From positions 1 to 37,793 of the IMG/VR virus record IMGVR_UViG_3300035670_000633: a DNA stretch of 37,793 nucleotides; one strand, given 5' to 3'. The first letter of the stretch is position 1. Every line of letters starts with the position of its first letter. The position numbers were made by a program, and so were the translations under genes. The notes under the pieces were generated by a model. That model saw nothing but the letters and a program-made list of their open reading frames with translations, was not told the origin of the DNA and searched no databases. This stretch comes from a virus. Shown in pieces: positions 3,961 through 32,530 of the stretch.

Positions 3961-3961
3961 G

Positions 3962-4523: not shown

Positions 4524-4578
4524 AGTGTGGTTTGCACCTCAGTGGGACGGAACACGCCCGCTAGAGCGCAAACCTATT

Positions 4579-4599: not shown

Positions 4600-4611
4600 A
4601 TCGATCCCCAA

Positions 4612-4967: not shown

Positions 4968-5086
4968 TGTAGTTTTACTGACCAGTGAAGTTTGGCCATT
5001 CCACGAAACATTGCACTTTGTGAAAGGTAATGCCTACCGCTGCAAGGGCCAGCCTCGCAACCCTGAACATGGAGAACCCGTTTCTG

Positions 5087-5759: not shown

Positions 5760-6060
5760 GGTTTACGGTGTCAAACGATAGGTCAATCGGGCGCAATAGC
5801 AAGCTGATGTTGTCACAAATTATACCCCCCTATTTCTGACAAAATCATCCCCACCGAGGAAACTTGCATGGGGACAATTATTTCCGCTTGCAAGATTTCA
5901 CGTTTTGCGCGTAAATAGTAATGCCGCCCGAAATTCGGACAACGGCAACACCTCCGCAGGACACGGCCCGCAAGGACAACCGAGGACGCGAGATCACGAC
6001 ATCTCAATCGCTGAAGGCACAACGCCGGCAGCACACCTCAACTTTTCATCACCTACCGTT
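5760..6060. promoter_or_regulatory. Divergent control region between minus operon and capsid gene
   Basis: This 301-base gap separates divergently transcribed units. A perfect TATAAT is read on the minus strand at 5824-5819, about 60 bases above the DUF3310 start. It lies between two arms of an inverted repeat, TTGTCA (5810-5815) and TGACAA (5837-5842), a plausible operator. A C-rich run CCCCCC is next to it. For the plus strand, TTGCAA followed 18 bases later by TAAATA (near 5888-5917) is a weak candidate promoter for the capsid gene. The capsid frame stays open upstream to TTG 5905 but the Asn/Gly-rich extension looks untranslated. Confidence 0.45.
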
Positions 6061-7558: not shown

Positions 7559-8395
7559 ATGACAAAAACTGACATCGCCAACTTGGCAATCACTCATCTC
7601 GGCGGGCGGCAAATCAAAGACGTCGACTCCGATCAGACGCCCCAGGCTATCGTTGCTTTGCAATGGTTCGCCACCGCAGCCAAGGAAGCGCTGAAGTCGC
7701 ATCCCTGGAACTTTGCCATCGCTCGCACTCGGTCGACGATTGCATTTACTTCGTTGTCAGGATCTGCGCTGGCAGACAACGGTAGCGGCGAATTTCGCGT
7801 GACGTCCAACAGTCATGGGCTTGTTACCGGTGACCGCATCCTGCTGCGCAATGTCGAGGGCGCCACCACGGCAAATGCGACCTGGTATGTCACCAAGGTC
7901 AGTGCCAACGCCTTCGACCTTGACGATTCGGTTTACGTTTCCGGTTACACCAGCGCAACCGGCGAATGGGTCAAGGTGCCGATGTTTGACTGGGAATTCC
8001 AGCACGCCCTTCCAGATTGCTGCCTGCGCGTTCTCAAGATCAACGGTGAGTCTGGCGGGCTGAAAGACGACTCGGACGATTTCAGCGTCGAGAAGGAGTT
8101 CATCCTGTGCAACAGCGAAACTGTCAACATCACCTACATCGACGACTTGTCTGCAGAACCGAACCTGTGGCCGGCGGATTTCTGCAACGCATTCTCGTTC
8201 CTGCTGGCGTCCTACATGGCGCAAAGTCTCGCCGGTCCTTCGGGTCAGTCCCAGGGTCTGCGGCAGTCTTATGAAGGATTGCTGGCGCCCATGGCAAAAA
8301 CTCGAGATTCACGCGAGGGCAAGAAACCACGCACGTTGCCCTTCCCTGATTCGCAATTGCTCCAGTCCCGTTCCGGTGTTATTCAAACCGCATGA
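7559..8395 (+). CDS. Tail tubular protein A (T7 gp11-like) with inserted FCCH-like domain
   Basis: This 278-aa protein opens with the gp11 pattern: I-A-N-L-A-I-T-H-L-G-G, then D-S-D-Q-T-P-Q-A, and K-S-H-P-W-N-F-A near residue 58. The protein forms the ring joining portal to nozzle. Residues about 75-140 are an insertion resembling the FCCH beta-barrel domain found in many phage gp11 relatives: S-H-G-L-V-T-G-D-R-I-L-L, then A-N-A-T-W-Y-V-T-K and N-A-F-D-L-D-D-S. After it the gp11 pattern resumes, with P-D-C-C-L-R-V-L and W-P-A-D-F-C-N-A-F-S-F-L-L-A-S-Y-M-A. The next gene overlaps by four bases. Confidence 0.85.
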   Translation: MTKTDIANLAITHLGGRQIKDVDSDQTPQAIVALQWFATAAKEALKSHPWNFAIARTRSTIAFTSLSGSALADNGSGEFRVTSNSHGLVTGDRILLRNVEGATTANATWYVTKVSANAFDLDDSVYVSGYTSATGEWVKVPMFDWEFQHALPDCCLRVLKINGESGGLKDDSDDFSVEKEFILCNSETVNITYIDDLSAEPNLWPADFCNAFSFLLASYMAQSLAGPSGQSQGLRQSYEGLLAPMAKTRDSREGKKPRTLPFPDSQLLQSRSGVIQTA

Positions 8396-11300: not shown

Positions 11301-11433
11301 CGATGAGGATCTGCAACCGTCGCACTTCCAGGCGGATTGGCGCAACTATTCCCAGGTGGCTATCGTCCACAACGACCCGTCGCCATTTGGCTTGCTTGGC
11401 TACATCCTGACGCTAGAGGTGGAAGGCGAATGA
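8392..11433 (+). CDS. Tail nozzle protein (gp12-like) with three carbohydrate-binding-like inserts
   Basis: This 1,013-aa protein begins with the nozzle signature: F-N-G-G-L-V-T-P-K-M-S-G-R-F-D-L-D-K-L, then S-P-Y-G-G-V-F-K-R-P-G-T-Q-F-V. A central F-H-D-L-R-L-W-F-G-G and L-Q-E-W-T-I-D-G-G are typical of the propeller-like body. Three modules at residues about 114-156, 264-308 and 320-374 share W-x5-Y-x2-G-x2-V, a later Y-x-C, H-T-S and a closing Trp. This is the pattern of family 5/12 chitin/cellulose-binding modules. They may touch surface glycans. The start overlaps gp11 as ATGA. Confidence 0.85.
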   Translation: MSAFHTLSSNFNGGLVTPKMSGRFDLDKLKSGCVELKNMLVSPYGGVFKRPGTQFVRRATSDVSDQTRLVSIRATGFDPASGGTVTVTESIVFEIGINRNMRPLQFNSIYLNPWATSTAYVIGDIVGIYDAINDETTVYYCIEDHTSSGSFDSSKWFTPISAGVYSGDITNTTQDNIINIPIPNDWINYGTDKLRSIQINDVVFFVHPDVPPYRLIARDGQLDNAGSTCRFKYRFEPVPFDFAPALDVNETLTNVQVQYDYNDWVTATSYAVGDRVIGTDGKLYTCYSAHTSGSTTAPVTGASYLTVWNPGTSSANIPAWANATSYTAGTSFVKYRNVIYKCTTSHTSTTPTSGAYGWIGGNRPGTSQLWAKFWEVSGGDFDLSNVAFKLVATESLFTAEDADTTWRIQFGVEKYFREMIINGTGVDLGPTESIFVQNAFTVSTNWNTGAAPISTLVLSESADGVIWRELRRWEILDSNEGNISYAGDGGSTGTYYRLSGYVTSGGGTAKRIRIEPATALLTFPFKINTYTDAKNVKGELIIPGSQLPPINVIGVASNSFRKPAFSAAQGYPSAVAFHDLRLWFGGTRGQPARIWASQTDDFYNFLTGSQDTDALDITLGATKRNEIKWLQSFNRVLVVGTNLQEWTIDGGDEETSIKPSSFRARPRTNYGSGDVTPIVIEEALLWSPNSGKKLLEFAYNFQSDGYTAPDLSIFLGPRLGVVKRMAFMRNPFPCLWVVNEDGQLFSFFYDRAQELTAWSIHLTGEDAGDIFEDVVTTDEVSDQVWFVVRRSLGNSQYGRFIEKMDVNINTALASDTNHDTGSAMSFDPVHLDCVVIDNPGQSGANTIYTTGLHGPFVGRSLWLFQNGANFSIAGPSDPVPNVSPYNAVFPNFTNLAGNYQFGFQIKSTIQGFPVEVMLRDGTGQGRKWRPNRITFLMQNSHGGAYGDTLANATQPIEYPRSPAPVFTGRTDEDLQPSHFQADWRNYSQVAIVHNDPSPFGLLGYILTLEVEGE

Positions 11434-11843
11434 TTATGGTCGATATTCGCAAAGTAACACCAAATGACATGCCAACCCTTGCGACTTGGGCGCAACGTCG
11501 GGGCTGCGGTCTTGTCTCCGAACTGTTGCCGCCGGATGGTTTTCTCGCCACCATTGATGGTAAACCGCTTATGACGGCATGGGCATCGTTTGCCATAAAC
11601 TGCCCAATTGTTTATGTCGATCACGTTTACCTTCCGAGGCGGTTTGACATTGACGCGGCAAGGGAAGCGTGGCGCATGATTATTGAACGCATTCGCACAC
11701 TAGCGACAGACGTGAGCAAATCCGCCAAAAAGCCTTATTTGATAATTGAAATTGTCATGAATCCTGTTATGGAAAGGGAAGCAATTGCAGCTGGCGGAAT
11801 TGTTTCGGTTCGTGAATACAAAAAATGTCATTTTTTAATTTAA
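11430..11843 (+). CDS. GNAT-acetyltransferase-like protein in the gp13 position
   Basis: This is a 137-aa protein from ATG 11430, overlapping the nozzle stop; a second ATG at 11436 would remove two residues. The start V-D-I-R-K-V-T-P-N-D-M-P-T-L resembles the first strand and helix of GNAT N-acetyltransferases. I-V-Y-V-D-H-V-Y-L fits the central strand preceding the acetyl-CoA loop. The canonical Q/R-x2-G-x-G/A loop is not clearly present, so activity is uncertain. Short-tailed phages often carry a GNAT-like gene between gp12 and gp14. Its codons are more A/T-rich than those of its neighbours. Confidence 0.6.
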   Translation: MIMVDIRKVTPNDMPTLATWAQRRGCGLVSELLPPDGFLATIDGKPLMTAWASFAINCPIVYVDHVYLPRRFDIDAAREAWRMIIERIRTLATDVSKSAKKPYLIIEIVMNPVMEREAIAAGGIVSVREYKKCHFLI

Positions 11844-11847
11844 AACC

Positions 11848-12363
11848 ATGGGACTAGAAACAGCAACTATTGCCGCAATTGCTGCCGGCGTTTCTGCTGC
11901 ATCAGCTGGCGCTGCAACTGCCATGCAGATCCGCCAGGCTGGCAATGCCGCCAAGCAGGCCGAAATGAATGCCGACGCTCAGGCCAAGGCAATCGCGCAA
12001 GAGAAGAAGCGACAGTCATTGGAGCAGGCTGAAAACCAACGCCGCGCAGCTGTGGAACAAAAGCGGTTCCGCGCTTCTCAGTTTTCCGCCATGGCATCGA
12101 GCGGCGCCATGACCGGCACCGGCACCGCACTGGACATCGAGGCGGACACCTGGGCGCAGCAACAGCTGCAGCTTGCCGATCGTCAATACCTTGCCGACAT
12201 CGGTCAGCGTGCGCTATCCGCCCAAGCGTCGACGGTGCGGCAGCAGGGCTATGCGCAAGCTTCGCAGATCCGTGGCACTCGGGCCGGCACTGCGCTGCAG
12301 GGTCTGGCTAGCATGGCGCAAACGGCGATGATGTATAAAGCAAACGCACCGACCACCACATAA
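11848..12363 (+). CDS. Internal virion protein, gp14-like
   Basis: This 171-aa protein has an Ala/Gly-rich hydrophobic N-terminus (A-T-I-A-A-I-A-A-G-V-S-A-A-S-A-G) followed by a long Gln/Ala/Lys coiled coil (residues about 30-75). A Gly/Met turn A-S-S-G-A-M-T-G-T-G-T-A follows near 85, then another helix. This is the layout of the small ejection protein of T7-like phages, which enters the outer membrane of the host on infection. Its place before two larger helical proteins supports this. It uses ATG after AAAACC, with no Shine-Dalgarno sequence. Confidence 0.75.
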   Translation: MGLETATIAAIAAGVSAASAGAATAMQIRQAGNAAKQAEMNADAQAKAIAQEKKRQSLEQAENQRRAAVEQKRFRASQFSAMASSGAMTGTGTALDIEADTWAQQQLQLADRQYLADIGQRALSAQASTVRQQGYAQASQIRGTRAGTALQGLASMAQTAMMYKANAPTTT

Positions 12364-12364
12364 C

Positions 12365-13996
12365 ATGGCACGCATTCCAATCGCACCACTGCCTGGTCAG
12401 CTTGAGTCGGGCAACCAGACTGTCAGGACAGCACAAATCCCGGTCGAGGCGCGATCCGCCACTGCCGAAGGCTTGATGGCAGTCGCTGACACATCGGCCC
12501 GCATTATGAAGCTTGCCGCCGAAGCGGATGACTTCAAGAACATGACCCAAGCGGGCATGGCCATGCAGGATGCGCAGATGTCATTTGCCAAATATCAGCA
12601 AGACAATGCCAACAACGAAAGCGCTTGGCTGGACGGATGGAATAAACACGTTGAAAGTGTGAAAAGTAAAGTCGCAGAAATGCGCTTGTCGCCAACTGCT
12701 CGAGAGCAAATGACGGCACGCTTGTCCAAATGGGCGACCGAAGGCACGATCCAGGTGAACTCGGATGTGTTTCGTCAGAAGGGCAGGAATGCCATCCAGG
12801 TGCTCGACAATGCCGTGGATCGTTTGCGTCTTGACGGTGACCCCACTGTTGTAAATGATGCGCTCAACAATCCGAACATCACAAACATTGTGCCGGAGCC
12901 TGTTCGTGAATCTTATAGAAACAAAGCGGAACAGGTGCTGCAACAAACGTGGCAACGCAATTATATTGAGGCGCGTGAAAGCGCGGTAGCCAATGACGCA
13001 TGGGACGAAGTTGATCAACTCGATGAGCAGGCGCGGCAACGAAATCTCATCAGCGATGATCAACTGAATACCCGCAAACAAAATTCCGAACGGGGCAGGC
13101 AAGCTGCAATGGTAAAGCTAACGGCTGAAACCGATCCAGATGCCGCCCGCGCAAAACTGAAAGAGACAAACCTTTCCGACCAAGATCGACGCACGCTCCA
13201 AGGATTCATCGATCAAGCAGAACGTGGTCTGGTAATCGGTGAACTTGCAAGCATTGCCGACAAGGTGGCAGAAGGTAAAATTACCCGTGGCGATCAAGTC
13301 GAGTCTCGGTTTTTGCGCCCAGCAGAATTGCAGAAAATCCGCGCCGAAATCGACTCGGCGCCGCCAAGTCTTGACATGGTAGCTGCGGAAGTTTTCAAGC
13401 TGGAGGCTGAGATCGGGCAACTGACCGTGGCATCATTTGGCAACCGTGATCCAAAGACTACTGCCCAGCTTGTTTCCCTAGCGGCACGAATTTCCAAACT
13501 GCCGGAAGGTCAAGCAACCGAATTGCGGGCGCAACTGGACAAACGTCGTCGCGGAGAGAACCCGACAGATAAAGAAGCTTACATCGCGCAGGGCATCAAG
13601 ATTATCGACACGCTATTTGAAGAACGGCGCAAAGATTTCTTCGATGATGACAACGTGTTGAAGGCGGGCAAAGAGGAAGAGTATTCCGCTTTCATGCTCA
13701 ACCTGACAAAAAAGTCCGAAGAATTGAAACGCAGGATGCCACAGGATGTCGACGACAAGCGTGCGAAAGAAATTATTTTCAACGTGCTTCAAGAAGACAT
13801 GGCAGCAAAGGCCAAACGCGAACTCAACCTGCGCCGTGCGACGACGTCCATGCGTCCCAATGTGATCCCGCCTGGGATGCCTTACTTCCCGCCGATTCCT
13901 GGTGGAGGCGCCAGCCCTACCATTCCAGGTGGAATAGGAGGCTTTGAGCCAATGAACCCACTGTTTCCAGAAAACCTTGAGCAGCCCAAAGAATAA
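12365..13996 (+). CDS. Internal virion protein, gp15-like
   Basis: This 543-aa protein is almost entirely helical and charged. It starts M-A-R-I-P-I-A-P-L-P, and the 350 residues that follow include repeated short helical hairpins (A-E-A-D-D-F, W-L-D-G-W-N-K-H-V, D-P-D-A-A-R-A-K-L). The tail from about residue 495 is Pro/Gly/Met-rich (I-P-P-G-M-P-Y-F-P-P-I-P-G-G-G). Size, order and helical content match the middle ejection protein of podoviruses, which forms the periplasmic tunnel with the gp14- and gp16-like proteins. There are no catalytic motifs. The next gene begins three bases after the stop. Confidence 0.7.
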   Translation: MARIPIAPLPGQLESGNQTVRTAQIPVEARSATAEGLMAVADTSARIMKLAAEADDFKNMTQAGMAMQDAQMSFAKYQQDNANNESAWLDGWNKHVESVKSKVAEMRLSPTAREQMTARLSKWATEGTIQVNSDVFRQKGRNAIQVLDNAVDRLRLDGDPTVVNDALNNPNITNIVPEPVRESYRNKAEQVLQQTWQRNYIEARESAVANDAWDEVDQLDEQARQRNLISDDQLNTRKQNSERGRQAAMVKLTAETDPDAARAKLKETNLSDQDRRTLQGFIDQAERGLVIGELASIADKVAEGKITRGDQVESRFLRPAELQKIRAEIDSAPPSLDMVAAEVFKLEAEIGQLTVASFGNRDPKTTAQLVSLAARISKLPEGQATELRAQLDKRRRGENPTDKEAYIAQGIKIIDTLFEERRKDFFDDDNVLKAGKEEEYSAFMLNLTKKSEELKRRMPQDVDDKRAKEIIFNVLQEDMAAKAKRELNLRRATTSMRPNVIPPGMPYFPPIPGGGASPTIPGGIGGFEPMNPLFPENLEQPKE

Positions 13997-13999
13997 TTC

Positions 14000-16900
14000 A
14001 TGACCCCCGAACAACGCATTGCCCGTCAGCAGAAAGAAGCGGAAGCAGACATCCGCCGCGCTATTCTAGGCCAGGAGACGTTTGAGATCAAAGCGCTCGA
14101 TGAAGGTGACGCGCATTCTATCGTCGCCGACAAAACGAAGTTTACTCGAGACATTGCAGTGGCAAGCTGGATGGACGGCATCAACGGGAAAGACAACATT
14201 CCCGGCACGATGGATTGGCAGGCAAACAAAGACGCTTTGGCGCAGGAATACTTCAAGCAGGACGTTCGGGGAATCTCCGACGATGACTTTGCTGGTTTGG
14301 TGCGTGACCACATCACCGCACAGTCTGCTTTTGCTGATGTTGCATTCACCGCTGCCGCCAAGGAAACACCGCTTCCAGAAGCAATCAAAGAAGCGCGAAA
14401 AAAGTCGGGTTTATTTGGCATCGGTCACAAATTCGCCGCCAACGAAGGGCGATACCTTGCCGACTTCACCCGTCAGTATGCCGACACCAAGGAAAAGCTG
14501 TTCCCCTACCGTGAGCAGATCAATCAGCTGACCGAGATGGGGCGAGGCGCTGAAGAGCGCATCGCCGCCGGCGAGGGTTCACCATGGGAAGACATGGCCA
14601 AGGTCATGCTGACCATCCCGGCGGAAGATCGTGAAGACGTTCTGCATGCCATTGCAGCCCAAGACAAGAAAGAAGGGGAAACCGAAAAAGACGCTTTTAC
14701 TCGCACCGTGTTGGCGTTTGACCGAGGTCTGGAACGCTACGTCATGACGGCGGGCGAAGGCATGCGCGACATTGGGTTCACTGCACTCATGGCCGGCGCC
14801 GCTGCAGAATCTGCCGAAGCTCGCCGCTTTGGCGCACCTGCGGAAATGCCGAAATCGTTCATCCGCCCCGAGGAGGAGCAGCAAATGGACTTCCTCAAGC
14901 GGCAAATGCGCGACCTTTCCCGTGGCAGTCTCGACCCACTAGATCGCGTGGAACTGCTAGGCATGTCCATTTCCGGTGCCGCTGAAAACCTGCCCATGAT
15001 GGCGGCAAGCTTTATCCCCTACGTCGGGCCTGCGATGATGCTGGGCAGTTTCAAGGCTGAGACGGAGTATCAACTGCGCCAGCAATATCCCGAGATGGAC
15101 AGCGCCACCATCGAAGGGTTCTCCATGTTCGCAGCGCCATTCCAGGCTGCGTCCGAAGTGATTGGCAATCGCTTGCTGTTTGGTCGCTTGCCAAACCTCG
15201 GTAGGTTTATCAACTCGCCGGCGTTCAAGTCGGGCGCTATTGTTGGTCAGCTTGCTGGTCGTGTTGGTATCGGTGGCACAATCGAATACACCGAGGAACT
15301 GTTTCAGCAGGCTTTCCCGCAGGTCATGGTCGACCTGGCCGAAGCGATGGGTGCTGACATTCCCGACGTTAACTGGGGCGATTTCTGGCGAGACTGGAAG
15401 GCAAATCAAGGCGAACTTATTGCCACCATCATTCCGCTGGTCCTGCTCGGTTCTGGCGTCGGTCAGTTCTCGGACTTCCAGAACAGTCGAGCGCTTGCTC
15501 GAGATCAGGATCTTCTGGTTGCCGCCGGCTATTCCGTCGAAAACGCTGCCAAGATTAAAGAGTTTGCCGACGCTGGCAAGTGGGGCGAGGCGCAGGATCT
15601 CATGCTGAAGGACTGGCGTGCCGTCAACGCCAAGGGTGTTTCCATTCCCGAAGTCAGCAATGAGGCGGCAACCAAGATCCTGGCGGAACGTGAAGCGGCA
15701 AAGGAGAAGGTTCTTGAGAAACTGCAGCAAGTGCAAGACGACGTCGGGCGCATTGCTGCCCAGGGTGGCTACAGCTTGAGCAAGGTCGCAGGAGGCTGGC
15801 AGGTCACGACGCCAGATTCGCAGGTGACCGTTGCCAGCGCTGAAGAAGCGACGGCACTGCTGCAGAATCACTACAACGAAGCCGAACGCGAGAACATCCT
15901 TGCAGTCGCCAAGCTTGCCGACGAACTCGAAAAGCAGGGAGACACTCAGCGAGTCGAGATCAAGCCTGGCGAGCAAGTCCAGATCACCTGGGAAGACAAC
16001 CAGCAAGCTGTCGAGGTTGCCGCCCGCATGGCTGGACTGACACCGGAACAAGCGAAGCGCGTGACGTTTTCCGTGCTGGGATCCAACCGATTTGAGCATG
16101 CCGAAGGCTTGAAGCGTGCCGTGTCCACGATCTTCCAAGGTGGCAACGTGCTGACCATGGTCGAGGAAACCGTCGAAGGCAGATTCAAGCGTGCGCTTGA
16201 TACTGGCGCACTGACCAAGGAAGAAGCGACCAAAATGGTCCAGCTTGCCGAGTCTATTGTCAACGAGGGCAAGACCGGCGCCGATCGCCAAACTATTTTC
16301 GACACCCAAGCTGCAGACCAGGATCGTGCGCTGATCGAAGCGGTTTCCAAGATCGTTTACCTCGACGTCTTTGGCCGGCGCAAGGAAGGCGGCAGGTTTA
16401 CACCCGGCCTGATTAGCCGAGGCTTGAAGGCTGCGGTTCAGATGCAGGCGCCCACGGAGGCGCTTGCCTTCCAGATGCAGCAGGCAGCGCAGGGCAAGAC
16501 CGCGGAAGCGTCGCAGATGCACGCATTCCTGTCCGCTTTCCGCACCCTGTTCGGCAGCGTGTTCAAGGCTGCGCGTGCGCTGAAGCAAGCCCGCGCCCAA
16601 GGGAAGACCGAAGAACTGGACACGTTCATCAACAAGCTCATCGGCGTGCAGGCCGAAGTGGTTGAGCAGGAAGCCACCTTCCAGGAGGCGCAGACCCTAC
16701 TGGCAGAGATGCCGCAGCTTGAGGGGCAACCGTATGAGACGTTTTCGATGAGAGCTGGCACTGTGTCAGCGGAGCAACTGGAAAGCCCCAACAGGTTTTT
16801 CAGAGTCATCGTGGGCGATGAGGCTTTTCAAGACATTGTGACATCCGGCGAGGTGCGAACCAACGCCGCGACAAAAGGTGGCACTAGCCTGATGGAAAAA

Positions 16901-19900
16901 CTGGCACTGCGTCCGACTGCGTTTCCGTCATTCAGCAAAGGCGCAATCGCCATGAGCTATGCGGCTGCAAATCCAAATCACTATGTGATTGCAACCGAAT
17001 CGAGCTTGATGCAACCCTCGACCCTTGGACGGCACGGGGCTGGCACTACTCATTTTCCAACTGACGCTGCTACTGGGCAACCGCTTAAAGCAATGCCAGC
17101 GGGAGAAGTACAGGTTTATAAACATATAGGCAATGGTCGCTATGCTTTGGCCTACGATCAAGGCGTGCTTGTTGCGCAACCTTATGAGACGTTTGCCATG
17201 CGCGTTTTGATGACGCGCAAAGCATTGACCGATGCTGCGCTTCAGCAGGAAAGCTGGCGTGATTGGTATGAGGAACATCAAGCTGTTCTCGATGACTTCT
17301 TTGGTGAATATGCCCCGCTTTTTCAAGACATCCTTTCGATCACCTCTCAAGCCGCAAGCGTCAAAGCCAACGTCGGATTGGCTTTGAAAGCATTTGGTTT
17401 GTATGTGCGAGGCGAATCGTTTGACGCAAGAGAACGTGGCGAAGAAAAGCCAGGCTTCTTGCCTGCGGTGATCATGAATCTGAATCGTCTGCGTGAAGAC
17501 AAGCAGATCCAAGGTCAAAAAATTAAAGCATACAAAGCCAGCAACGAAGGCGCAGTTGATCAAGCTGTCATCGATAGACACATCACTCGTTTGCTGTTTG
17601 GAGTTGATACACCATCGGCAAAACAATTCGCCAAAGCACAACGAGTGTTGTCCGAAATTGCCGATGACATCGGTTGGACACCTCGACAAGTTCAAGCTGC
17701 GCTTTGGGCGCACTCAATCTACAAAAGCGGAAAAACCCCCGAATCTTATGGAGCCTACCTCACCAAACTTGAAGCAAAAGGAACTATCGCAAAACGAATT
17801 GGAGATCTTGCTGGCAGAGGCGCAGGCTTCGATGCAGCAGGTCGAGGACGGGGCAGATTTGCTCCTCTTGGCGCAGGAAAAGCTGAAGTCCCTGGAGTAA
17901 CCTTCTCCATGCGTCCCCAGGCGAAACTGGACTCATACAAGGACCGAGCGGGATACCAAGCTGGCGAATCGTTCACTGAAACCGAAATCCGCGAAGGGAT
18001 TGAGGACGAGTCTGGAACGGTGGCAGACATTGAAATTGATGACGATGCTTTTTCCAGCGAGGTGGACACGACGTTTTCCATCGCTGTTTCTGCACCTCTT
18101 ATTACTAGAGCATCCCTTAAGGGCAAAAAAAAGTTTGTTTATTTTTCAGACTGGACACGTGTTGGCACTTACACTGGACTGCACGATGGCAGCGGAATCA
18201 GCATTCCCCTGCAAGGTGGACCATTGTATCCATACATTGGCAAAAACGCCAAGGCCGGGGCTGGGTGGGCATTTACCGCTGAAGGGATGTTTACAAGGTT
18301 CCAAAAACGGGTCGATGCAACTGATGGCATTGGCTTGACTACCCTGTATGGCAAAGACAATCTTCGGGCAAACCCAACTTTCCTTGCCGCCTACGTTGAG
18401 GAATTGCGATATGCGGTCCGTGCTGGGCTAATCAAAGAAGGCGACATGCTTTCAAGCCTTAATCAAGCGAGAATTCAAGTGCTTGGCCTAAGTCAGAAAA
18501 GAACCGACAGAGAGACGGGTACAGTAAAGGTCAAGTTTACGGTATCCCGCGATTCGGAAGCGTTTGCACTTTTTTCTGAGGAATGGAAAAGCATCGAAGA
18601 TTTTCAATCCGCGATGAGTTCGGCAACATTTGAAGTTCGGGCTGCGATGTTTTCAACATCTCCAAAAGAGGTCACTCGCGACAAGGTAAAAACAAGGGTT
18701 CCAGGTCAATTTTCTGGCGGCAGGCTTGCCAGCCAAAAAAATGTCAACGCCGGGATGCCAGACGTCATCAAGATGATCGACCTGTTTGCAGACCCTAGGT
18801 TTGACGGTGGCGAGTACGGTACAATCATAGGAGCTGTTCAATTTGAAAAATCACAAAGTGCGTCCACTAAAGCAGAAGACATTGGCGCTGAAATTCACCT
18901 GTCATATCCCGTGGTGATTAAGGGGACGGGCATCGGTCTGTTTAGTGATCCAATTCATGTCACCTCAATCATCAAAAAGGCAGGCAAAAAAGCTTCAGAG
19001 ATTACAAGGTCCGCCGAAGTCTCTATGGCTGATGCCACCTTTTCCATGCGTCCCTCTTTTGAGGACCGTCTGACCGGCGTCTTCAGCCCGCTCATGCGCG
19101 ATCCAGTGGTGCGTCGTGAACTGGCGCAGCGTGCGCTGGAAAAGGCAAAGTCGGCAGCAACGAAGCTTGGCAAGCTAAAGAAAGGTGAGGTGACTCCCCA
19201 GGAACAGCGTGACCGAACTGTCGCCGGATTGCGTGTGCTGAATGCTGCGCTGGCAGCAATGCCGCCCGTTGTTCGCACCCGTGTTGGTGGCTTTATTGCC
19301 GTCGCCCAGCGCACGACCGCAGAGGGCATGATGCGCGAGATCGAACGCCGCATTGCCAAGCTCGACGTTGAGCTTGAACGCTACCTTGCCGAGGAAGCGA
19401 CCCAGGAAGCTGAAGACCTGTTCGACCGCTACAAGTCGCAGCGTGACAGCGGCGGGCGCCAGGCTGGCAAGATCATGGCGAGCGCCACCGAGCAGATCGA
19501 CTACGCCTTGGGCATTTACGATCTCGACGATGATCAGCAGGACACGACGATCGGTGGCTTGCAGAAGCGCATCGACGATGCCGACAATGCAGACGACCTT
19601 GCCGATGCCATGAACAAGCTGGCGATTGCCGAACTGTTCAGCCACTGGGAAAAGCAAGATTCCGAATCCCGTTACGCTGCAGTCGACTGGATGCGCGACA
19701 TCATCGAGACGGGCAAACTGGGTCGGTCGATTATCGACGAGGAACGCAAGCAGTTCCTGGCTGCGCTGAAGGAAGACGCACGCACCTCGGTGCTGGGCGA
19801 TGTCCGCGCCAGCCTGGCCGAAGCGGAAAACAAGGACAACCAGACCGACAGCAGCGCCTGGCAGACGTTTGTCCGCAATGTCAAATCCGCAGGCGGATCT

Positions 19901-21997
19901 TTGCTGTGGACTACTGCCCAGCAGATCGAACTGCTGTTTGGCGCCGATTCCCAGGTCTACAAATACTTCACCGACAAGATTGTCGAGGCGGCGAATCTCA
20001 GCACGGACATCAAGACTGCAGCCGACAAACGTCGTGTTGCATTCATGCAACAGCTGTTTGACACCAAGAGTTCGCTGAAGCTCGCCCAGGCCATGGCGCG
20101 ACTGCAGAAGGCTCGCAGTTCCGGCGTCTTTGTGAACGTGGGTCGAGTCGTGGAAAAGGTGAAGATCCCGGTCGAGGTTCTCGAGCGCTTGTCTGATGGC
20201 ACCGTGACTCCCGAAGACATCGGGCTGAACGACGCCCAGGCGCAGCAGGCACTGGAAGACTTTGCTGCCGCCGGCCCGATGAAACGTCAGATCGAGGTCG
20301 AGAAGGTCGTCAATGCCGGCGAGCAGGTTGAAAAGTTCATGTCCGAAGGTCAGGGCATCATGTGGTTCCTTTGGAGTCGGCAGGATGTCAGTCGCAAACA
20401 AATGGAACGCGATGGCTGGAACGAAGACAGCTTGAAGCAACTCGATGCCTTCCTGTCCGACGAAGCAAAAGCGATTGCTGACTTCATCGCCCAGGATCTG
20501 CAAATGGCTGGCGACATGATCGATCCGGTTTACCGGCGCTTGTTCAACGCCCCGATGCCGCGCAACAAAAACTATGCGCCCATCTATCGACTCAAGCCTG
20601 CCGACACGGCAGCGATGGATTTTGAAGCGGGGATGAGCAGTGGACTCGATGCCGGGTTTACCAAGGCGCGAGTCAACAACAGCTTGCCCTTGCGCGAGAT
20701 GGATGCGTTTGTCGTTTTCCTGTCGCACTGGGAACACGTTTCGCACTGGGTCAGTCATGCCGAACTGATGCGCGACATGAAGTCGGTGATGTTCGATGCC
20801 AACGTGCAAAACGCAATTCGCACAAAGTCCGGCAAAGGTGCTTTGGAAGGCATCAACAACAGGCTCAAGGCAATCGAATCGAACGGCAATCGCGCCGCCT
20901 GGGACTTGCATTCCGTCAACAAGATCTGGTCGAACTTGACGAAGTTCCGGGCGTTCAAAGGTCTGGCGTTCCGTGTGTCGCCCGTCGTCAAGCAAACGAG
21001 CGCTTTCCTCAATCCTCTGTTGGCAGACGTTCCTGCGCACGCTTACGCTATCGGCTTGGCAAACGCCTTCGGGGATCCGGTCAACTTTTCCTCGGACGTT
21101 GCAGCGATGTGGGAATCTCCAATCATCCAGCGTCGACTTGATGGTGGGTTTTCTGCCGAAGCTCGGATCGCCATGGGGCGTGCTGGCATCACCGGTTCGA
21201 CGCTTGTTGCCGCCATGCAGAAGGGCATGATGCCGATGGCAATGACCGACGCCGGCTGGACTGCCTTGGGCGCAGCAATTTCGTTCCGCTACTACAAAAA
21301 GGTGGCGATGCGAGAAGAAGGCACGACCGAGGAACAAGCAAACGCGATTGCCATGAAACGGGTCGAACGCATGATTGCCACCTCTGCGCAGCCCGCTGAC
21401 CTGGTCAACCGAGCGTTGATCGAGAACCAGACAAACCCAATTGTCAAATCGCTGTGGATGTTTGCCAGCGAATCTCGAAAGTCACTGGCGATCGAACTGA
21501 TGGCGATGCGCAACCTTGCCAAGGGCAAAGAAGTCGGCATGAACATTCAGCGCATTCTCGTCGCGCATTTTGTGCAAGCTGCGGTGACGCAGCTTATGGG
21601 CAGTTTCCTGATGTCCATCATGGGCGACGACGATGACAAGGAGCGTGCATGGAGTTTGGACACCTGGGCGCTGTCGCTCGCACTCGGTCCGATCAACGGT
21701 CTGTTTGTCTTGGGATCGGTCATCGATACCGCTGCCCGTCGTGCTGCTGGCATGTATACCTTCCCGAGCGAACTGCTGCCCGGCCAGGTTTACAGCGTCA
21801 CGGAAAAAGCGGTGCGCAACATCGACGACCTGTTCCAGGACGATCCCGACTCGGTGCTTGATGAGATCGACAAGATTTCCGCCGCAGTCGGCACGATCAT
21901 GTCGACCATCTTTGGTCCTGCAGGCGGTGCGGTTGACGTCTTTGGCAACGTCGCCAGAGATGCCCGCAAAATTTACAAGTCGCAAACCGAAGACTGA
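14000..21997 (+). CDS. Giant ejection (gp16-like) polyvalent protein
   Basis: This 2,665-aa protein is in the slot of the T7 gp16 internal virion protein. It has an N-terminal helical part with hydrophobic segments near residues 331-350 and 471-490. The middle is modular and punctuated by T-F-S-M-R-type motifs at residues 914, 1064, 1301, 1358 and 1680. A long helical C-terminal half follows, with hydrophobic segments near 2520-2540 and 2560-2585. The C-terminal third (F-R-A-F-K-G-L-A-F-R-V-S-P-V-V-K) resembles large polyvalent-protein-associated regions of phage proteins. It is expected to be packaged and injected with the DNA. An N-terminal lytic transglycosylase domain is not evident. Confidence 0.82.
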   Translation: MTPEQRIARQQKEAEADIRRAILGQETFEIKALDEGDAHSIVADKTKFTRDIAVASWMDGINGKDNIPGTMDWQANKDALAQEYFKQDVRGISDDDFAGLVRDHITAQSAFADVAFTAAAKETPLPEAIKEARKKSGLFGIGHKFAANEGRYLADFTRQYADTKEKLFPYREQINQLTEMGRGAEERIAAGEGSPWEDMAKVMLTIPAEDREDVLHAIAAQDKKEGETEKDAFTRTVLAFDRGLERYVMTAGEGMRDIGFTALMAGAAAESAEARRFGAPAEMPKSFIRPEEEQQMDFLKRQMRDLSRGSLDPLDRVELLGMSISGAAENLPMMAASFIPYVGPAMMLGSFKAETEYQLRQQYPEMDSATIEGFSMFAAPFQAASEVIGNRLLFGRLPNLGRFINSPAFKSGAIVGQLAGRVGIGGTIEYTEELFQQAFPQVMVDLAEAMGADIPDVNWGDFWRDWKANQGELIATIIPLVLLGSGVGQFSDFQNSRALARDQDLLVAAGYSVENAAKIKEFADAGKWGEAQDLMLKDWRAVNAKGVSIPEVSNEAATKILAEREAAKEKVLEKLQQVQDDVGRIAAQGGYSLSKVAGGWQVTTPDSQVTVASAEEATALLQNHYNEAERENILAVAKLADELEKQGDTQRVEIKPGEQVQITWEDNQQAVEVAARMAGLTPEQAKRVTFSVLGSNRFEHAEGLKRAVSTIFQGGNVLTMVEETVEGRFKRALDTGALTKEEATKMVQLAESIVNEGKTGADRQTIFDTQAADQDRALIEAVSKIVYLDVFGRRKEGGRFTPGLISRGLKAAVQMQAPTEALAFQMQQAAQGKTAEASQMHAFLSAFRTLFGSVFKAARALKQARAQGKTEELDTFINKLIGVQAEVVEQEATFQEAQTLLAEMPQLEGQPYETFSMRAGTVSAEQLESPNRFFRVIVGDEAFQDIVTSGEVRTNAATKGGTSLMEKLALRPTAFPSFSKGAIAMSYAAANPNHYVIATESSLMQPSTLGRHGAGTTHFPTDAATGQPLKAMPAGEVQVYKHIGNGRYALAYDQGVLVAQPYETFAMRVLMTRKALTDAALQQESWRDWYEEHQAVLDDFFGEYAPLFQDILSITSQAASVKANVGLALKAFGLYVRGESFDARERGEEKPGFLPAVIMNLNRLREDKQIQGQKIKAYKASNEGAVDQAVIDRHITRLLFGVDTPSAKQFAKAQRVLSEIADDIGWTPRQVQAALWAHSIYKSGKTPESYGAYLTKLEAKGTIAKRIGDLAGRGAGFDAAGRGRGRFAPLGAGKAEVPGVTFSMRPQAKLDSYKDRAGYQAGESFTETEIREGIEDESGTVADIEIDDDAFSSEVDTTFSIAVSAPLITRASLKGKKKFVYFSDWTRVGTYTGLHDGSGISIPLQGGPLYPYIGKNAKAGAGWAFTAEGMFTRFQKRVDATDGIGLTTLYGKDNLRANPTFLAAYVEELRYAVRAGLIKEGDMLSSLNQARIQVLGLSQKRTDRETGTVKVKFTVSRDSEAFALFSEEWKSIEDFQSAMSSATFEVRAAMFSTSPKEVTRDKVKTRVPGQFSGGRLASQKNVNAGMPDVIKMIDLFADPRFDGGEYGTIIGAVQFEKSQSASTKAEDIGAEIHLSYPVVIKGTGIGLFSDPIHVTSIIKKAGKKASEITRSAEVSMADATFSMRPSFEDRLTGVFSPLMRDPVVRRELAQRALEKAKSAATKLGKLKKGEVTPQEQRDRTVAGLRVLNAALAAMPPVVRTRVGGFIAVAQRTTAEGMMREIERRIAKLDVELERYLAEEATQEAEDLFDRYKSQRDSGGRQAGKIMASATEQIDYALGIYDLDDDQQDTTIGGLQKRIDDADNADDLADAMNKLAIAELFSHWEKQDSESRYAAVDWMRDIIETGKLGRSIIDEERKQFLAALKEDARTSVLGDVRASLAEAENKDNQTDSSAWQTFVRNVKSAGGSLLWTTAQQIELLFGADSQVYKYFTDKIVEAANLSTDIKTAADKRRVAFMQQLFDTKSSLKLAQAMARLQKARSSGVFVNVGRVVEKVKIPVEVLERLSDGTVTPEDIGLNDAQAQQALEDFAAAGPMKRQIEVEKVVNAGEQVEKFMSEGQGIMWFLWSRQDVSRKQMERDGWNEDSLKQLDAFLSDEAKAIADFIAQDLQMAGDMIDPVYRRLFNAPMPRNKNYAPIYRLKPADTAAMDFEAGMSSGLDAGFTKARVNNSLPLREMDAFVVFLSHWEHVSHWVSHAELMRDMKSVMFDANVQNAIRTKSGKGALEGINNRLKAIESNGNRAAWDLHSVNKIWSNLTKFRAFKGLAFRVSPVVKQTSAFLNPLLADVPAHAYAIGLANAFGDPVNFSSDVAAMWESPIIQRRLDGGFSAEARIAMGRAGITGSTLVAAMQKGMMPMAMTDAGWTALGAAISFRYYKKVAMREEGTTEEQANAIAMKRVERMIATSAQPADLVNRALIENQTNPIVKSLWMFASESRKSLAIELMAMRNLAKGKEVGMNIQRILVAHFVQAAVTQLMGSFLMSIMGDDDDKERAWSLDTWALSLALGPINGLFVLGSVIDTAARRAAGMYTFPSELLPGQVYSVTEKAVRNIDDLFQDDPDSVLDEIDKISAAVGTIMSTIFGPAGGAVDVFGNVARDARKIYKSQTED
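16754..17188 (+). other. ADP-ribosyltransferase-like module of the giant protein
   Basis: Residues about 919-1063 start near R-F-F-R-V-I-V-G-D-E-A-F and continue F-P-S-F-S-K-G-A-I-A-M-S-Y-A, N-H-Y-V-I-A-T-E-S-S and P-A-G-E-V-Q-V-Y-K-H-I. An early Arg, a middle Ser-x-Ser and a late Glu in a strand are in the order expected of the R-S-E class of ADP-ribosyltransferases, a fold common in phage polyvalent proteins. The match is by eye only, and the Q/E-x-E pair is incomplete. Confidence 0.4.
17204..17899 (+). other. Helical HhH-like module of the giant protein
   Basis: Residues about 1069-1300 include W-R-D-W-Y-E-E-H near the start, D-I-L-S-I-T-S-Q, K-I-K-A-Y-K, V-I-D-R-H-I-T-R-L-L-F-G and G-W-T-P-R-Q-V-Q-A-A-L-W. 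This order (helical start, K-I-x-x-Y, then V-x-D-R-H) occurs in uncharacterised modules of other phage polyproteins. It recalls helix-hairpin-helix DNA glycosylase folds. Function is unproven. Codons are more A/T-rich than in the flanking protein. Confidence 0.4.
18086..19036 (+). other. Unidentified 317-residue A/T-rich module of the giant protein
   Basis: Residues about 1363-1679 include V-Y-F-S-D-W-T-R-V-G-T-Y-T-G-L-H-D-G, P-L-Q-G-G-P-L-Y-P-Y, A-G-W-A-F-T and, later, R-V-P-G-Q-F-S-G-G-R. Two 60-base lines counted by eye (18121-18180 and 18841-18900) have 40% G+C, against 58% for 19381-19440 just beyond the module. That points to separate ancestry. No family is recognised with confidence. 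Confidence 0.5.
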
Positions 21998-22389: not shown

Positions 22390-25300
22390 ATGGCGATCAA
22401 GGTATACGTCACAAATCCCGCTCCCGGTCCTGTGCAGGTCACCGTGACGAACCCGACGCAGGACATTCGAACCATTGAGGTCAGTCCGACGCTGGTGCCT
22501 GGACCTGGCGTTCCAAGCGGAGGTGCTGCCGGCGACCTGCTCGTCAAGAACTCGGCGACTAACTTCGACACGGCATGGACCGACAGTCCGACCGTTGACA
22601 AGCTGACCTTCGACACGGCTGCTGCTGAGACGCTAAATGCTCAAGGCCAGATGGCTTGGAACTCCGATGAGGAAACGGTGGACATTCAGCTGAACGGCTT
22701 TGCCCTGCACACCGGCGAGCATGTCGTTTATCATGCAAAGAACCAGACGCTTTCGACCATCGCTAAAGGCGTTCCTGTAATGTTTGCTGGCACCGATGGC
22801 AACAGTGGCAAGCTGCTCATTCAGCCTTGGAACGGAACCGGGCCGAGCACCTATTTTATGGGGTTGACCGCCGAGGAGCTATCGGTGGACGAAGAAGGTT
22901 TTGTCATAGCCTTCGGCAAACTGAGGGGCATTCAAACCGATGGCGCGAACTACGGGCAAACTTGGACGAACGGCGAGATCATCTATGCCGGCACGACAAC
23001 CGGCAGTTTGACCGACACGCAGCCCGCCGCACCGAACCCTCACATTCAGGTCTGCGCGGTCATCTCCGCGCACGCTACGAACGGCACCCTGTTTATCCGA
23101 CCGACCCTCGGCTCCAACATCAAGGACGACGAAGGCGTGACGATCACCAGTCTGACGAGCGGGCAACTTCTTATCGCCAACTCGGCTGGGACCGTGTTCG
23201 AGAACAAGAGCTTGTCTGGCGATGCCACCCTGACCAACACGGGTGCATTGACCGTGTCCAATGATGCAGTCACGTATGCAAAAATGCAAAACGTCTCAGC
23301 GGCGTCGAAATTGCTCGGTCGTGGAGATGCTGGAAGCGGAGACGTTCAGGAAATCACCCTTGGCACCGGTCTGGCCATGTCGGGAACTACGGTTTCCGTC
23401 TCGGGCAGTTTTACTCCGACGGCGCACGCCAGCAGCCATGTTACGGGCGGCACAGACAAAATCCGCGATGCCACAGCTTCGCAGGATGGGTTGATGACGT
23501 CTGCATATGCCGGAAAGCTCGACGGCATTGAGGCAAATGCTGATGTCACCGATGCGGGCAATGTCGGTGCATCGATTGACGGTGCGACAGCTAAAACAAC
23601 GCCGGTTGATGCCGACGTCGTGCCCATTTTGGACAGTGCCGTGTCCAACGTCCTCAAGAAAGTGACTTGGGCAAACATCAAGGCCACGCTCAAAACCTAC
23701 TTCGATACGCTCTACCCAAGTGGCAGCGGCACAAGTTCCGGCACCAACACAGGCGACCAGAATCTTTTCCAGACGATTGCCGTTGCTGGGCAATCTAACG
23801 TCGTTGCCGACACGACCTCGGATACTTTGACTTTGGCGGCAGGCAGCAACATTACAATCACGACAAATGATTCAACCGACACTGTGACCATTGCTGCAAG
23901 CGCAGGTCTTGGCGGCAGCACCGGATCGACAGACAACCGAGTTTTGCGTGCCGATGGCACGGGAGGCTCAACTGTTCAAAGCAGTTTGCTATCGGTTGAC
24001 GACGACGGCAAAACAATCATCAACCTAAGCGCCAACACTGACGAAGCTTTAACCATTCAAGGCACTGACCGCAGCGGGTCTTTGGGTGTCAGCAATTATG
24101 GCGCCGGCATTCGCAGTAAAAACTTGGTTGAAATTGCCGATGGTTCTGGCGTCGTGGTAACGTCGTCAAATGCAACGGTCGGTCATTTTTACCTGCGTGG
24201 CGACACCGATGCAAATGTGGCTGCGCTTAAAGACTCGGCGTCGGCTGCAGGAACCGGCACAAATCCGCAAACCCTGCGCATTTACGAAACCAATCCATCG
24301 AGCGGCAATTACGAGCGTCTGACCATTTCTGCGGCGTCTGGAACAAACGTCATCAAACCGGAAGCGGCGGGCAGCGGCACTGCGTCCAAGGTAGACTACC
24401 ACCTGACCGCAACCGATGTCCGCATCACTAGCGGCAGCGGCTCACCGGAAGGCGTCGTCACCGCTCCTGTTGGCACGACATATCACCGCACCGATGGCGG
24501 CACCGGCACGACGGTTTACATAAAAGAAAGCGGCACGGGAAACACTGGTTGGGTTGCCATCGACGACACGGGCATCACTCAACTGACAGGAGATGTGACC
24601 GCTGGACCTGGCAACGGTAGCCAAGCCGCTACGATTCAGCCCACTGCCATCTCCGGCAAGACAACCGCCACGCTCGTAGGCACGGAAGAAGTGCTGGTCA
24701 ACGACGCCGGAACGCTCAAGAAGACGACCACTCAAGACATCGCTGACTTGGCTCCGCCAGCAGGATTGGCCGACCCCGGTGCCAACGGCATCGTTGTCCG
24801 CACCGCTCTGAACACCACCACGGCCCGCAGCGTTGCCGCCGGCACGAACGTCACGGTGTCCAACGGAGACGGCGTAAGCGGCAACCCGACCGTCAACGTG
24901 GCTGATGCGTCCACGACAGTGAAGGGCGTGGTTGAGCTTGCGACCAGCGCCGAGACGACCGCCGGCCTTGCGGTTCAAGCGAGCGACACGCGGCTTTCCG
25001 ATTCACGCACGCCAACCGCACACGCCAGCAGTCACGTCACGCCAGGTAGCGACAAGATTCGGGATGCCTCGGCTTCGCAGGATGGTTTGATGACCACGGC
25101 CTACGCCTCCAAGCTCGACGGCATCGAGGCAGGCGCGGATGTGACCGACGCCACGAATGTTGGAGCCGCCATTAACGGAGCAACGGCCAAGACAACGCCA
25201 GTTGACGCCGACACGGTTGGCTTGATTGATAGCGCAGCATCCAACGTCTTGAAGAAGCTTTCTTGGTCGAACATAAAAGCCACGCTCAAGACCTACTTCG

Positions 25301-30264: not shown

Positions 30265-30468
30265 ATGACAAACGAACAACGCATCACCATCCTGGTGGCA
30301 CTGAAAAACATGCTCGACGACTCGGCCAAATGCCGTGACAACGCGCAAAAACAACTCGCCAAAACCGGCGACCCGTATTGGCAGGAGTCCATTGACTACT
30401 GGCAAAGCTCTCACCAACGCTACCTGTCTGCACACAGCACCATGCTGCACCTCAACACCATCAACTAA
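30265..30468 (+). CDS. Small helical protein, unknown function
   Basis: This is a 67-aa protein from ATG 30265 (context GACC-ATG). It is helical and polar: I-T-I-L-V-A-L-K-N-M-L-D-D-S-A-K, then W-Q-E-S-I-D-Y-W-Q-S-S-H-Q-R-Y and a short polar tail. There are no motifs. It lies between the tail-anchored protein and the annealase gene and probably shares their transcript. Confidence 0.6.
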   Translation: MTNEQRITILVALKNMLDDSAKCRDNAQKQLAKTGDPYWQESIDYWQSSHQRYLSAHSTMLHLNTIN

Positions 30469-30487
30469 ACCCAACGAAACCACGACA

Positions 30488-31324
30488 ATGAACACTGAAC
30501 TCACCACCACCACCACCGAAGTCACTGACCTGCAGATCCAGCGTGAAAACGCGGCATTTGAACTGCTGCAGCGCCAGGCAAAAATGTTTGCCAGCAGCAG
30601 CCTGGTCCCGAAGGAATTCCAGGGCAACCTGGCCAACTGCGCGATCGGCATCAACATCGCCAAGCGCTTAGGCGCGGACCCGTTTATGGTGCTGCAGAAC
30701 ATCGACATCATCCACGGTCGTCCCAGCTTCCGCGCTTCCTTCCTGATCGCCATGGTCAATGCCAGCGGCAGGTTTGAACCGCTGCAGTTCAAGGTCGAAG
30801 GCGAGGGTGCCAAGCGTTCCTGCATCGCTTGGACTCGACCGAAGGGGGGCGGCGAACCGCTCGAGGGTCCACCGGTGTCCTTGGAGATGGCAAAGGCTGA
30901 AGGCTGGTCCACCAAGAACGGCAGCAAGTGGCAGACCCTGCCGGATCTGATGCTGCGCTATCGTGCCGCCGCGTTCTTCGCTCGCCTTTACGCCCCCGAC
31001 ATCACCCTCGGCATGCTCACTGTCGAGGAAACGCAGGACATCGCTCCGGTGCGCGACGTCACCCCGAAGGTCAAGTCCGCCAGCCAGAGCAAGCTGTTCA
31101 GCACCCCCGAGCCGGCACCGCTGGTCGAGGTCGAGGCTGAGTCTGTCGCCAGCCAGATCGCCGGCAAATGCGCAGCCAGCGGCATCTCTTGGTCGGACGT
31201 TGCACGCATCGCATGCGACAACGGCCTGGCCGATGACATTTACCAGTCGCCCGAACAGGCGCCGGACACGACGCTGTCGGACATCCTTTCGGCCTGGTCG
31301 CAGATTGAACTTGCCGCGAAGTAA
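30488..31324 (+). CDS. RecT-like single-strand annealing recombinase
   Basis: This 278-aa protein starts at ATG 30488 after an A/C-rich leader, with a Thr-rich N-terminus. Features fitting the RecT family are helices with A-I-G-I-N-I-A-K-R-L-G-A-D-P and V-L-Q-N-I-D-I-I-H-G-R-P-S-F-R-A. The segment L-P-D-L-M-L-R-Y-R-A-A-A-F-F-A-R-L-Y-A-P is the most characteristic. RecT proteins anneal complementary single strands and work with a partner 5'-3' exonuclease; the PD-(D/E)XK nuclease gene follows 24 bases later. From about residue 195 the tail is variable and ends in a helical domain of about 45 residues. Confidence 0.85.
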   Translation: MNTELTTTTTEVTDLQIQRENAAFELLQRQAKMFASSSLVPKEFQGNLANCAIGINIAKRLGADPFMVLQNIDIIHGRPSFRASFLIAMVNASGRFEPLQFKVEGEGAKRSCIAWTRPKGGGEPLEGPPVSLEMAKAEGWSTKNGSKWQTLPDLMLRYRAAAFFARLYAPDITLGMLTVEETQDIAPVRDVTPKVKSASQSKLFSTPEPAPLVEVEAESVASQIAGKCAASGISWSDVARIACDNGLADDIYQSPEQAPDTTLSDILSAWSQIELAAK

Positions 31325-31348: not shown

Positions 31349-32530
31349 ATGAACACCACCGACGAACGTCACGGCCTGCCATCGGCCTCAAAGATGGATC
31401 GGGTTTCCAATTGCCCATGGTCGCACAAGGCCGAATCGTTTTTTCCAGCCGAGGAAACCAACGAAGCAGCCAGCAGTGGCACGCGCATCCATGCCGTCCT
31501 AGCCGGCGCCGCCAGTTCGGACACGCTTACCGTTGCCGAGCAGGAGACTGCCGAAATGTGCGCACGCCAGGCTGCGGAACTGATCGCGGCATGGCAAACC
31601 GAAGATGCGCACCTGGTCACGCTCAAGGAGGAACGCCTGTGGCTACACAAGGGCAGTTTGGTCATGCGCAAAGCCGGCACCGGTGCCACGTTTTCCGGTC
31701 AGGCGGACCTAATCCTGATCGACAAAAACGAGCGTCGTGCTTTGGTCATCGATTACAAGACCGGGCGCGGCGAGCAAACTGAAGCGGTCGATAACCCGCA
31801 GCTTGCAAGCCTTGCTGTGCTGGTGGCGAACTATTGCGACTGCGACCAGGTGCGCGTTGCACTCGTCCAGCCATGGGCAGGCAAGCCGACGGTCGCGGAT
31901 TACGACGAAGACGCGCTCGATCGTGCGTCGATTTGGCTGCGTGAGTCGCTGCATGCAGCCGAGTTTTCGGTGCCTGGCATGGCCAAGGCCGGACCCTGGT
32001 GCAAATGGTGCAAAGCTGCGTCAAACAACGCATGCCCTGCGTTTCGACGCTACACCGAGCAGGTGCCGGCATTGCTGCAGCCCGAAACTGTTGCAGACCT
32101 GTCGCCAAAGGAACAACTCCAAGAACTGTTTCGTCGGGCACTACGCATGCCAGCGTCTGAATTGGCAGACGCTATCGGCAAGCTTACTCTGGTCGGCAAA
32201 GCGATCGATGCGCTGAAGGACGCTGCCAAGCAACGGGCGCAGGATGACCCCGAGTTTCAGCAGTTCTACACGTTGCGCGAGAAGGCTGGGCGCCGTTCGA
32301 TCTCCGATGTCGGTGAGGCATTCAGCCGGTCGGCTGCGCTCGGTGTCAGTGCTGTCGACTTCACAAGTGCCTGCAAGGTGCCAATGTCGTCGATACGCGA
32401 TCTCCTGGGCAAAGCTACCGGGCAGAAGGGCAAAGCGCTCGACGCACTCGTCGACAGCGTGCTTGACGGCATCACCGAGCAGTCAGAACCGACTGCCGAA
32501 CTTAAAGCTGTGGAAGGAGGTGCGCGATGA
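31349..32530 (+). CDS. PD-(D/E)XK exonuclease, partner of RecT
   Basis: This 393-aa protein shows Cas4/RecB-like nuclease motifs: H48 in G-T-R-I-H-A-V-L, D120 in G-Q-A-D-L-I-L-I-D, D135-Y-K137 in V-I-D-Y-K-T-G-R-G and Q151 in N-P-Q-L-A-S-L. The N-terminus, P-S-A-S-K-M-D-R-V-S-N-C-P, and later C-K-W-C-K-A-A-S-N-N-A-C-P-A resemble phage DUF2800-type nucleases with a Cys cluster. It should resect DNA 5'-3' to make the single strands that the annealase uses. The C-terminal 150 residues are helical. The leader is A/C-rich. Confidence 0.85.
   Translation: MNTTDERHGLPSASKMDRVSNCPWSHKAESFFPAEETNEAASSGTRIHAVLAGAASSDTLTVAEQETAEMCARQAAELIAAWQTEDAHLVTLKEERLWLHKGSLVMRKAGTGATFSGQADLILIDKNERRALVIDYKTGRGEQTEAVDNPQLASLAVLVANYCDCDQVRVALVQPWAGKPTVADYDEDALDRASIWLRESLHAAEFSVPGMAKAGPWCKWCKAASNNACPAFRRYTEQVPALLQPETVADLSPKEQLQELFRRALRMPASELADAIGKLTLVGKAIDALKDAAKQRAQDDPEFQQFYTLREKAGRRSISDVGEAFSRSAALGVSAVDFTSACKVPMSSIRDLLGKATGQKGKALDALVDSVLDGITEQSEPTAELKAVEGGAR

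Follow-up and report, generated by a model that had tools for sequence, protein, structure and literature searches.

Related systems and overview of the locus

Phage polyvalent proteins have been described previously, together with their mosaicism and ART domains (Iyer et al. 2017, PMC5512222). They are very large multi-domain polypeptides thought to be delivered at infection, and a zincin-like metallopeptidase hub is found in about 36% of those known, hence is non-obligatory (PMC5512222). The internal virion proteins of T7, encoded in the order gp14-gp15-gp16 and ending with the large, mainly helical gp16 (internal virion protein D), provide a second reference. More distant parallels are offered by MARTX toxins (PMC5218395), whose conserved delivery arms enclose an exchangeable centre with short inter-module sites where the toxin's own cysteine protease cuts after leucines between effectors, and by the gp245 prohead-protease system of SPN3US (PMC10052503), in which the short phage-specific motif AXE is repeated in internal head proteins, the protease is known and cleavage was measured.

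The protein studied here is encoded by a 37.8-kb stretch of an IMG/VR virus record (hereafter the window). It resembles polyvalent proteins by its size, its multi-domain organization, its presumed delivery at infection, its domain mosaicism, the ART-PolyVal cargo of its relatives, and a carboxyl-terminal fold in common with proteins of the large polyvalent protein associated domain. It differs from them by an exact, lineage-typed peptide at the module joints, named seam below, that is undescribed in PMC5512222, and by the absence of the proposed processing zincin peptidase from nearly all carriers of the family. Gene order, large size and a mainly helical body are common with T7 gp16, but Pfam, NCBIfam, PHROG and PDB searches reveal neither a gp16-family sequence match nor a transglycosylase domain, and the carrier is about twice as long as gp16 because of its cargo. 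The likeness to MARTX toxins is an analogy, homology not being claimed, and no cysteine protease is found in the carrier. Unlike SPN3US, the window has no prohead protease gene and its motif is confined to one protein. Polyvalent proteins being known, what appears new is the seam peptide, of which no mention was found in PMC5512222 or in the other open-access literature searched (subscription papers and bioRxiv preprints lay outside this search).

A T7-like genome with a giant gene in the gp16 position

The window codes for T7-like morphogenesis proteins, including a portal protein (PF12236), a capsid protein (PF19821) and tail proteins resembling gp11 and gp12. An internal virion protein of gp14 type (11848..12363, + strand; phrog_418, E 3e-9), present in 32 of 38 relatives, is followed by a protein assigned by position as gp15-like (12365..13996, +), whose gene lies directly upstream of the carrier gene in 36 of the 38. 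The carrier itself is an open reading frame of 2,665 aa (14000..21997, +). The order gp11-gp12-(gp13)-gp14-gp15-carrier is found across relatives. The virus is a T7-like podovirus in which the carrier gene takes the place of gp16, and the gene order suggests that the carrier is packaged in the virion and delivered. The sequence-only reading had proposed a delivery carrier, a view that gains support from the gp16-like position after the gp14- and gp15-like genes and from the ART-PolyVal cargo of relatives. Further downstream, the window encodes a RecT-like annealing protein (30335..31324, +; phrog_561, E 4e-76), a possible agent of module exchange, and its partner exonuclease (31349..32530, +; phrog_69, E 9e-41).

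Several neighbouring genes deserve a comment. The gp12-like tail tube protein (8392-11433) has stretches of the carbohydrate-binding module CBM_5_12, the best at residues 319-351 (E 3e-9), an unusual module within a tail tube protein. The gene in the gp13 position (11430-11840), kept in 18 of 38 relatives, codes for a 137-aa polypeptide that looks GNAT-like by eye without a Pfam match. Downstream of the carrier, a 1,372-aa protein with DUF5907 repeats (22390-26508; E 1.5e-18) is probably a tail fibre. About 2 kb between the scaffold-like and capsid genes (~3960-5900) have no convincing gene on the + strand. A capsid-type protease beside the portal was considered and rejected: the weak 'protease' PHROG hit at 2945-3901 falls on the protein in scaffold position, without a supporting Pfam match.

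Organization of the carrier protein

The five copies of T-F-[SA]-[MI]-[RA] reported by the sequence-only reading are present as described, TFSMR at residue 914, TFAMR at 1064, TFSMR at 1301, TFSIA at 1358 and TFSMR at 1680, with the spacings of 150, 237, 57 and 322 residues that follow from these positions. Shuffling the 2,665-aa protein 5,000 times gives a mean of 0.021 matches and a maximum of 2. T-F-S-[MI]-[RA] occurs in no window ORF other than the carrier, and a looser pattern retrieves only NFSIA, EFSVP and DFSVA elsewhere in the window. Sequence searches of Pfam, NCBIfam, PHROG and PDB with the carrier give nothing above threshold, and its two terminal bodies have no match to an isolate among 50,697 phage records, save one unannotated fragment.

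The amino-terminal body (residues 1-913; 14000..16738, +) is conserved in the family, its profile being found in ~110 relatives, and is predicted by AlphaFold2 to be helical up to residue 902. It leads to seam 1 (TFSMR, 914-918; 16739..16753, +), where the sequence shared with the N-body of the closest relative, L005, ends. Cargo module 1 (919-1063; 16754..17188, +) has a homologue at residues 953-1089 of L031 (E 8e-44), where SMSMAP and SMSMGR border it. Seam 2 (TFAMR, 1064-1068; 17189..17203, +) is preceded by a QPYET coding sequence nearly identical to that ahead of seam 1, which suggests that the boundary was duplicated upon insertion. Module 2 (1069-1300; 17204..17899, +) is homologous to segments of L333, L308, L067 and L328 (E ~1e-103) flanked by NYSIG/NYSIA; its similarity to DUF7178 and DNA-glycosylase-like proteins is sub-threshold (E 0.017-0.02) and non-significant. 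Seam 3 (TFSMR, 1301-1305; 17900..17914, +) and seam 4 (TFSIA, 1358-1362; 18071..18085, +) bound the short module 3 (1306-1357; 17915..18070, +), whose homologue in L289 (E 2e-13) has SFSVI at both flanks. Module 4 (1363-1679; 18086..19036, +) also has its homologue in L289 (E 4e-85), between SFSVI and SFSMI. Homology to L005 restarts at seam 5 (TFSMR, 1680-1684; 19037..19051, +), followed by the carboxyl-terminal body (1685-2665 and stop codon; 19052..21997, +), whose profile is likewise found in ~110 relatives and whose AlphaFold2 model is all-helical. None of the window's own modules has a Pfam match above cut-off.

The carrier is thus a single polypeptide of two bodies and four modules with separate distributions. 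It is probably an ejection protein of the T7 gp16 type and of the polyvalent kind, in which a helical N-body is followed by a seam, then by modules each closed by a further seam, and finally by a helical C-body, TFSMR being the seam.

A family of carriers with unrelated cargo

Viral contigs were scanned with the whole protein, its C-terminal part, ART modules and the C-bodies of two other lineages. About 110 uncultured relatives share an N-terminal body of ~910 aa and a C-terminal body of ~985 aa, with unrelated central cargo. The relatives were studied as 38 diverse carriers and, later, as 112 unique proteins with both bodies. Pfam assigns to their centres ART-PolyVal (L009, E 3e-19; L011, E 2e-18), DUF2293 and weak other domains, which places the carrier family among phage polyvalent proteins.

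In the complete relatives, the joints of these centres bear [FY]-S-[ILM] copies like NMAFSLAP, GSTFSLSP and PDIRFSLSP, and TYSLR/TYSLQ in L005. The cargo of the 38 carriers (28,268 aa in all) contains 167 copies of [FY]S[ILMV], their bodies (74,271 aa) 36. The density is about 9-fold higher in cargo, where shuffling predicts 28 +/- 5 copies; FSI is the tripeptide with the highest cargo enrichment. In a non-redundant set (60% identity, chosen mostly regardless of cargo), the counts are 167 in 40,898 aa of cargo and 40 in 89,598 aa of body, for 40 +/- 6 expected in shuffled cargo. Copies in or just before ART domains were left out of the latter: the look-alike KVDKFSL inside ART is not a seam and was removed from the non-redundant counts and the lineage typing, while it is kept in the 38-carrier count. 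This recurrence in relatives is stronger evidence for the motif than the shuffling of the window protein. The motif spans ~5-6 residues, [TSNA]-[FY]-S-[ILMV]-[GSRA]-[PSR], with little conservation beyond. One carrier, L283 (ORF at 6911, residues ~760-1070), has no [FY]S[ILMV] seam and displays a zincin-like HELWEH stretch in its centre.

Modules are exchanged at the seam

Carriers with C-bodies at least 70% identical and different cargo provide 137 unique pair contexts. As these are non-independent, they correspond to a minimum of 24 distinct C-side joins. In 98 of them the first shared residue lies at position -1 (66), 0 (29) or +1 (3) relative to the motif aromatic residue. The sequence common to L006 and L007 stops at 'MAFS' and restarts at the F of FSLSP; that of L013 and L016 stops at NMAFSI and restarts at RFSISP; L009/L016 and L011/L003 restart at the F, and the window and L005 at seam 5. 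Among carriers less than 60% identical, 56% of homologous module starts and 49% of the ends fall no further than 10 aa from a motif, whereas random positions do so in 7.6% of cases. The breakpoint figures derive from anchored comparisons, a BLAST-based version being blurred by related ART cargo and over-extension. The median module length, 191 aa, is that of one domain.

Carriers without cargo give the reciprocal view. L291 has no cargo and one seam (SPLSLAPAS). Its backbone sequence at the joint is also that of L298, in which two seams enclose a cargo of ~220 aa. A single seam is likewise found in L296, a second carrier devoid of cargo. Across this comparison of empty and occupied carriers, there is one more seam than there are modules. 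The alignments show carriers acquiring, losing and exchanging modules exactly at the seam. The earlier proposal of a seam for module swapping between phages is thus strongly supported, because swaps in related carriers start and stop at the motif and because the window's own modules are found elsewhere between other seams.

No relative has the pieces encoded by separate genes divided at a seam. Three broken ORFs were considered as cases of separate polypeptides and discarded: L282 has an in-frame stop (~8915) inside a cargo module, and L306 (~2100-2460) and L018 (8430-9605) look like frameshifts, all away from seams. Sequencing error and decay are both possible origins of these interruptions.

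Each lineage has its own version of the seam

Seam copies within one protein are identical at 2.12 of the 4 variable positions. When copies are permuted among proteins this value falls to 1.34 +/- 0.07, the observed one being reached in 0 of 2,000 permutations. The result holds for each position and with carriers clustered down to 40% identity. Seam types include, besides the TFSMR of the window, NYSIG, SFSIG, SFSMI and TFSVI. Homologues of window modules 1-4 are found in other phages, between seams of the type proper to those phages: SMSM, NYSIG and SFSVI. When all homologous module pairs are compared, the motif at the module edge is closer to the other motifs of its own protein (2.01 and 2.25 of 4) than to the motif of the partner module (1.71 and 1.54), for a background of 1.25 of 4. 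Seams, as judged from these comparisons, follow the carrier more than the module.

A similar pattern is found in a set of phages with an 'IPLSQRF' ART module, selected separately by a query that omitted the motif. Although the domain is conserved, the tail that follows it differs by phage (RFSIS, RFQPD, RYMPE, RFALD, LYSAP). It recurs within the same protein 121 times, where comparison with other proteins predicts 38, and 47 of 52 proteins are above expectation. Few usable cases were left when only the ART-PolyVal tail served to group the motif classes. Other seam classes are represented by L064, which repeats LFSSP, and L081, which repeats [IL]xF[LM]P. From these repeats and the phage-specific recurring tails, the seam principle seems general for phage polyvalent proteins.

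Two very large ORFs are extreme examples of such classes. The 5,869-aa ORF of L225 has 11 similarity matches to RFALD beyond the ART tails, and the 5,994-aa ORF of L064 has several LFSSP copies. The 1,974-aa protein of L366 (7552-13476; BK063671, vir555), encoded in the same T7-like gene order, has the FQ-type repeats RFQSP, QFQAA and RFQLA, a different class again.

Conservation of the peptide and of its codons

Both TCN and AGY serine codons are found at the seams of 21 of the 38 proteins. When the same residue is compared, the codons of the aromatic residue (F), the hydrophobic residue and position +1 agree about as codon usage predicts, so that selection at the peptide level dominates. Serine codons agree more often than expected (0.36 versus 0.22), which implies that some DNA copying adds to seam homogeneity. 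Boundary duplications, a further trace of copying, are seen ahead of window seams 1 and 2 (QPYETF) and in L013 (DAGNMAFSISPVTPEQDAEYL). Codon comparison thus indicates that the seam is conserved mainly at the amino-acid level.

Predicted structure of the carrier bodies

AlphaFold2 models of the N- and C-bodies, built from 37-sequence alignments, are helical with mean pLDDT of 68 and 75. Seam 1 follows the last helix of the N-body and seam 5 precedes the C-body, both at pLDDT below 50, values compatible with a linker and short of proof. Seams 1 and 5, the only two placed, thus lie in low-confidence, linker-like sequence. Beyond seam 1, the N-body model (module 1) had zero alignment depth. At E <= 0.001 the C-body resembles 72 viral models in fold, several of them bearing the annotation ART-PolyVal or large polyvalent protein associated domain; the N-body fold was compared with viral models only. 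A protease fold in the bodies was discarded, the models being almost all-helical and the C-body having no PDB match at E <= 0.001.

Possible roles of the seam

The helical N-body, the seam-bounded modules and the helical C-body together form a cassette carrier. Exchange of modules is probably assisted by short homology at the seam codons and by the phage's RecT-like protein and exonuclease. As unrelated modules bear the seam version of their carrier, a lineage-specific partner probably reads the seam peptide. This partner is most likely a processing protease, encoded by the phage or the host, that would free bodies and modules during or after injection in a polyprotein-like manner, a hypothesis that we favour tentatively. 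It ranks first because the peptide is short, linker-placed at both backbone junctions modelled, retained by carriers that have no cargo, and of the carrier's own version on incoming modules. Module release would, in addition, explain one chain with several activities. A protease site is also consistent with 5-6 constrained residues within otherwise variable flanks, alike at all seams of a lineage, and processing into functional units was proposed for polyvalent proteins (PMC5512222). However, scanning of the window proteins recognizes no protease and that of the carrier no cis-peptidase, a search in which novel families would be missed. Autoprocessing by a zincin was rejected: HExxH is absent from the 12 closest proteins, and HExxH/HExxxH is found in 2 of 111 cargos. 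The motif is missing from the other virion proteins of the window, relatives have no natural split genes at seams, and the N4 virion RNA polymerase is reported to be packaged unprocessed (PMC5512222).

A serious rival to cleavage, somewhat doubtful in our view, is that the uncleaved seam docks to the portal, to the gp14/gp15 channel or to a chaperone for stepwise packaging or threading during ejection. Lineage typing and concerted change would be consistent with seams that co-evolve with a virion protein encoded nearby, genes of gp14 and gp15 type nearly always adjoin the carrier, and the median module has the size of one domain. Nevertheless, such a partner is hypothetical and its binding elements need not coincide exactly with the recombination point. 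That coincidence of junctions and motif codons is what is expected if seams are repeated short DNA for annealing-type exchange and the peptide has no function; the RecT-like protein and exonuclease of the window, the boundary duplications and the excess agreement of serine codons point in the same direction. The codon evidence makes a pure recombination handle unlikely: TCN and AGY serines are mixed in most of the 38 proteins, other codons match at usage level, DNA not being homogenized while the peptide is, and the peptide persists in carriers without cargo. The motif flanks often contain G, D and P, as in a generic flexible linker, but the enrichment, the exact breakpoints and the lineage typing contradict this or a chance repeat, which we consider very improbable.

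The seam could possibly act as a compatibility tag. A recogniser proper to each lineage, either a processing enzyme or an ejection partner, would co-evolve with its private peptide, and a module would become usable once it bears the seams of the carrier. TFSMR, NYSIG, SFSIG, LFSSP, [IL]xF[LM]P, FQ and RFALD would then be parallel lineage-private codes, in use among phage polyvalent proteins at large.

Effectors injected at the onset of infection are hard to find. Exact seams would allow polyvalent proteins to be cut into modules from sequence only, the modules to be counted, and their trade between phages to be traced. Should the seam serve as a signal for cleavage or ejection, it would explain how several activities are obtained from one injected chain, a question left by the description of polyvalent proteins.
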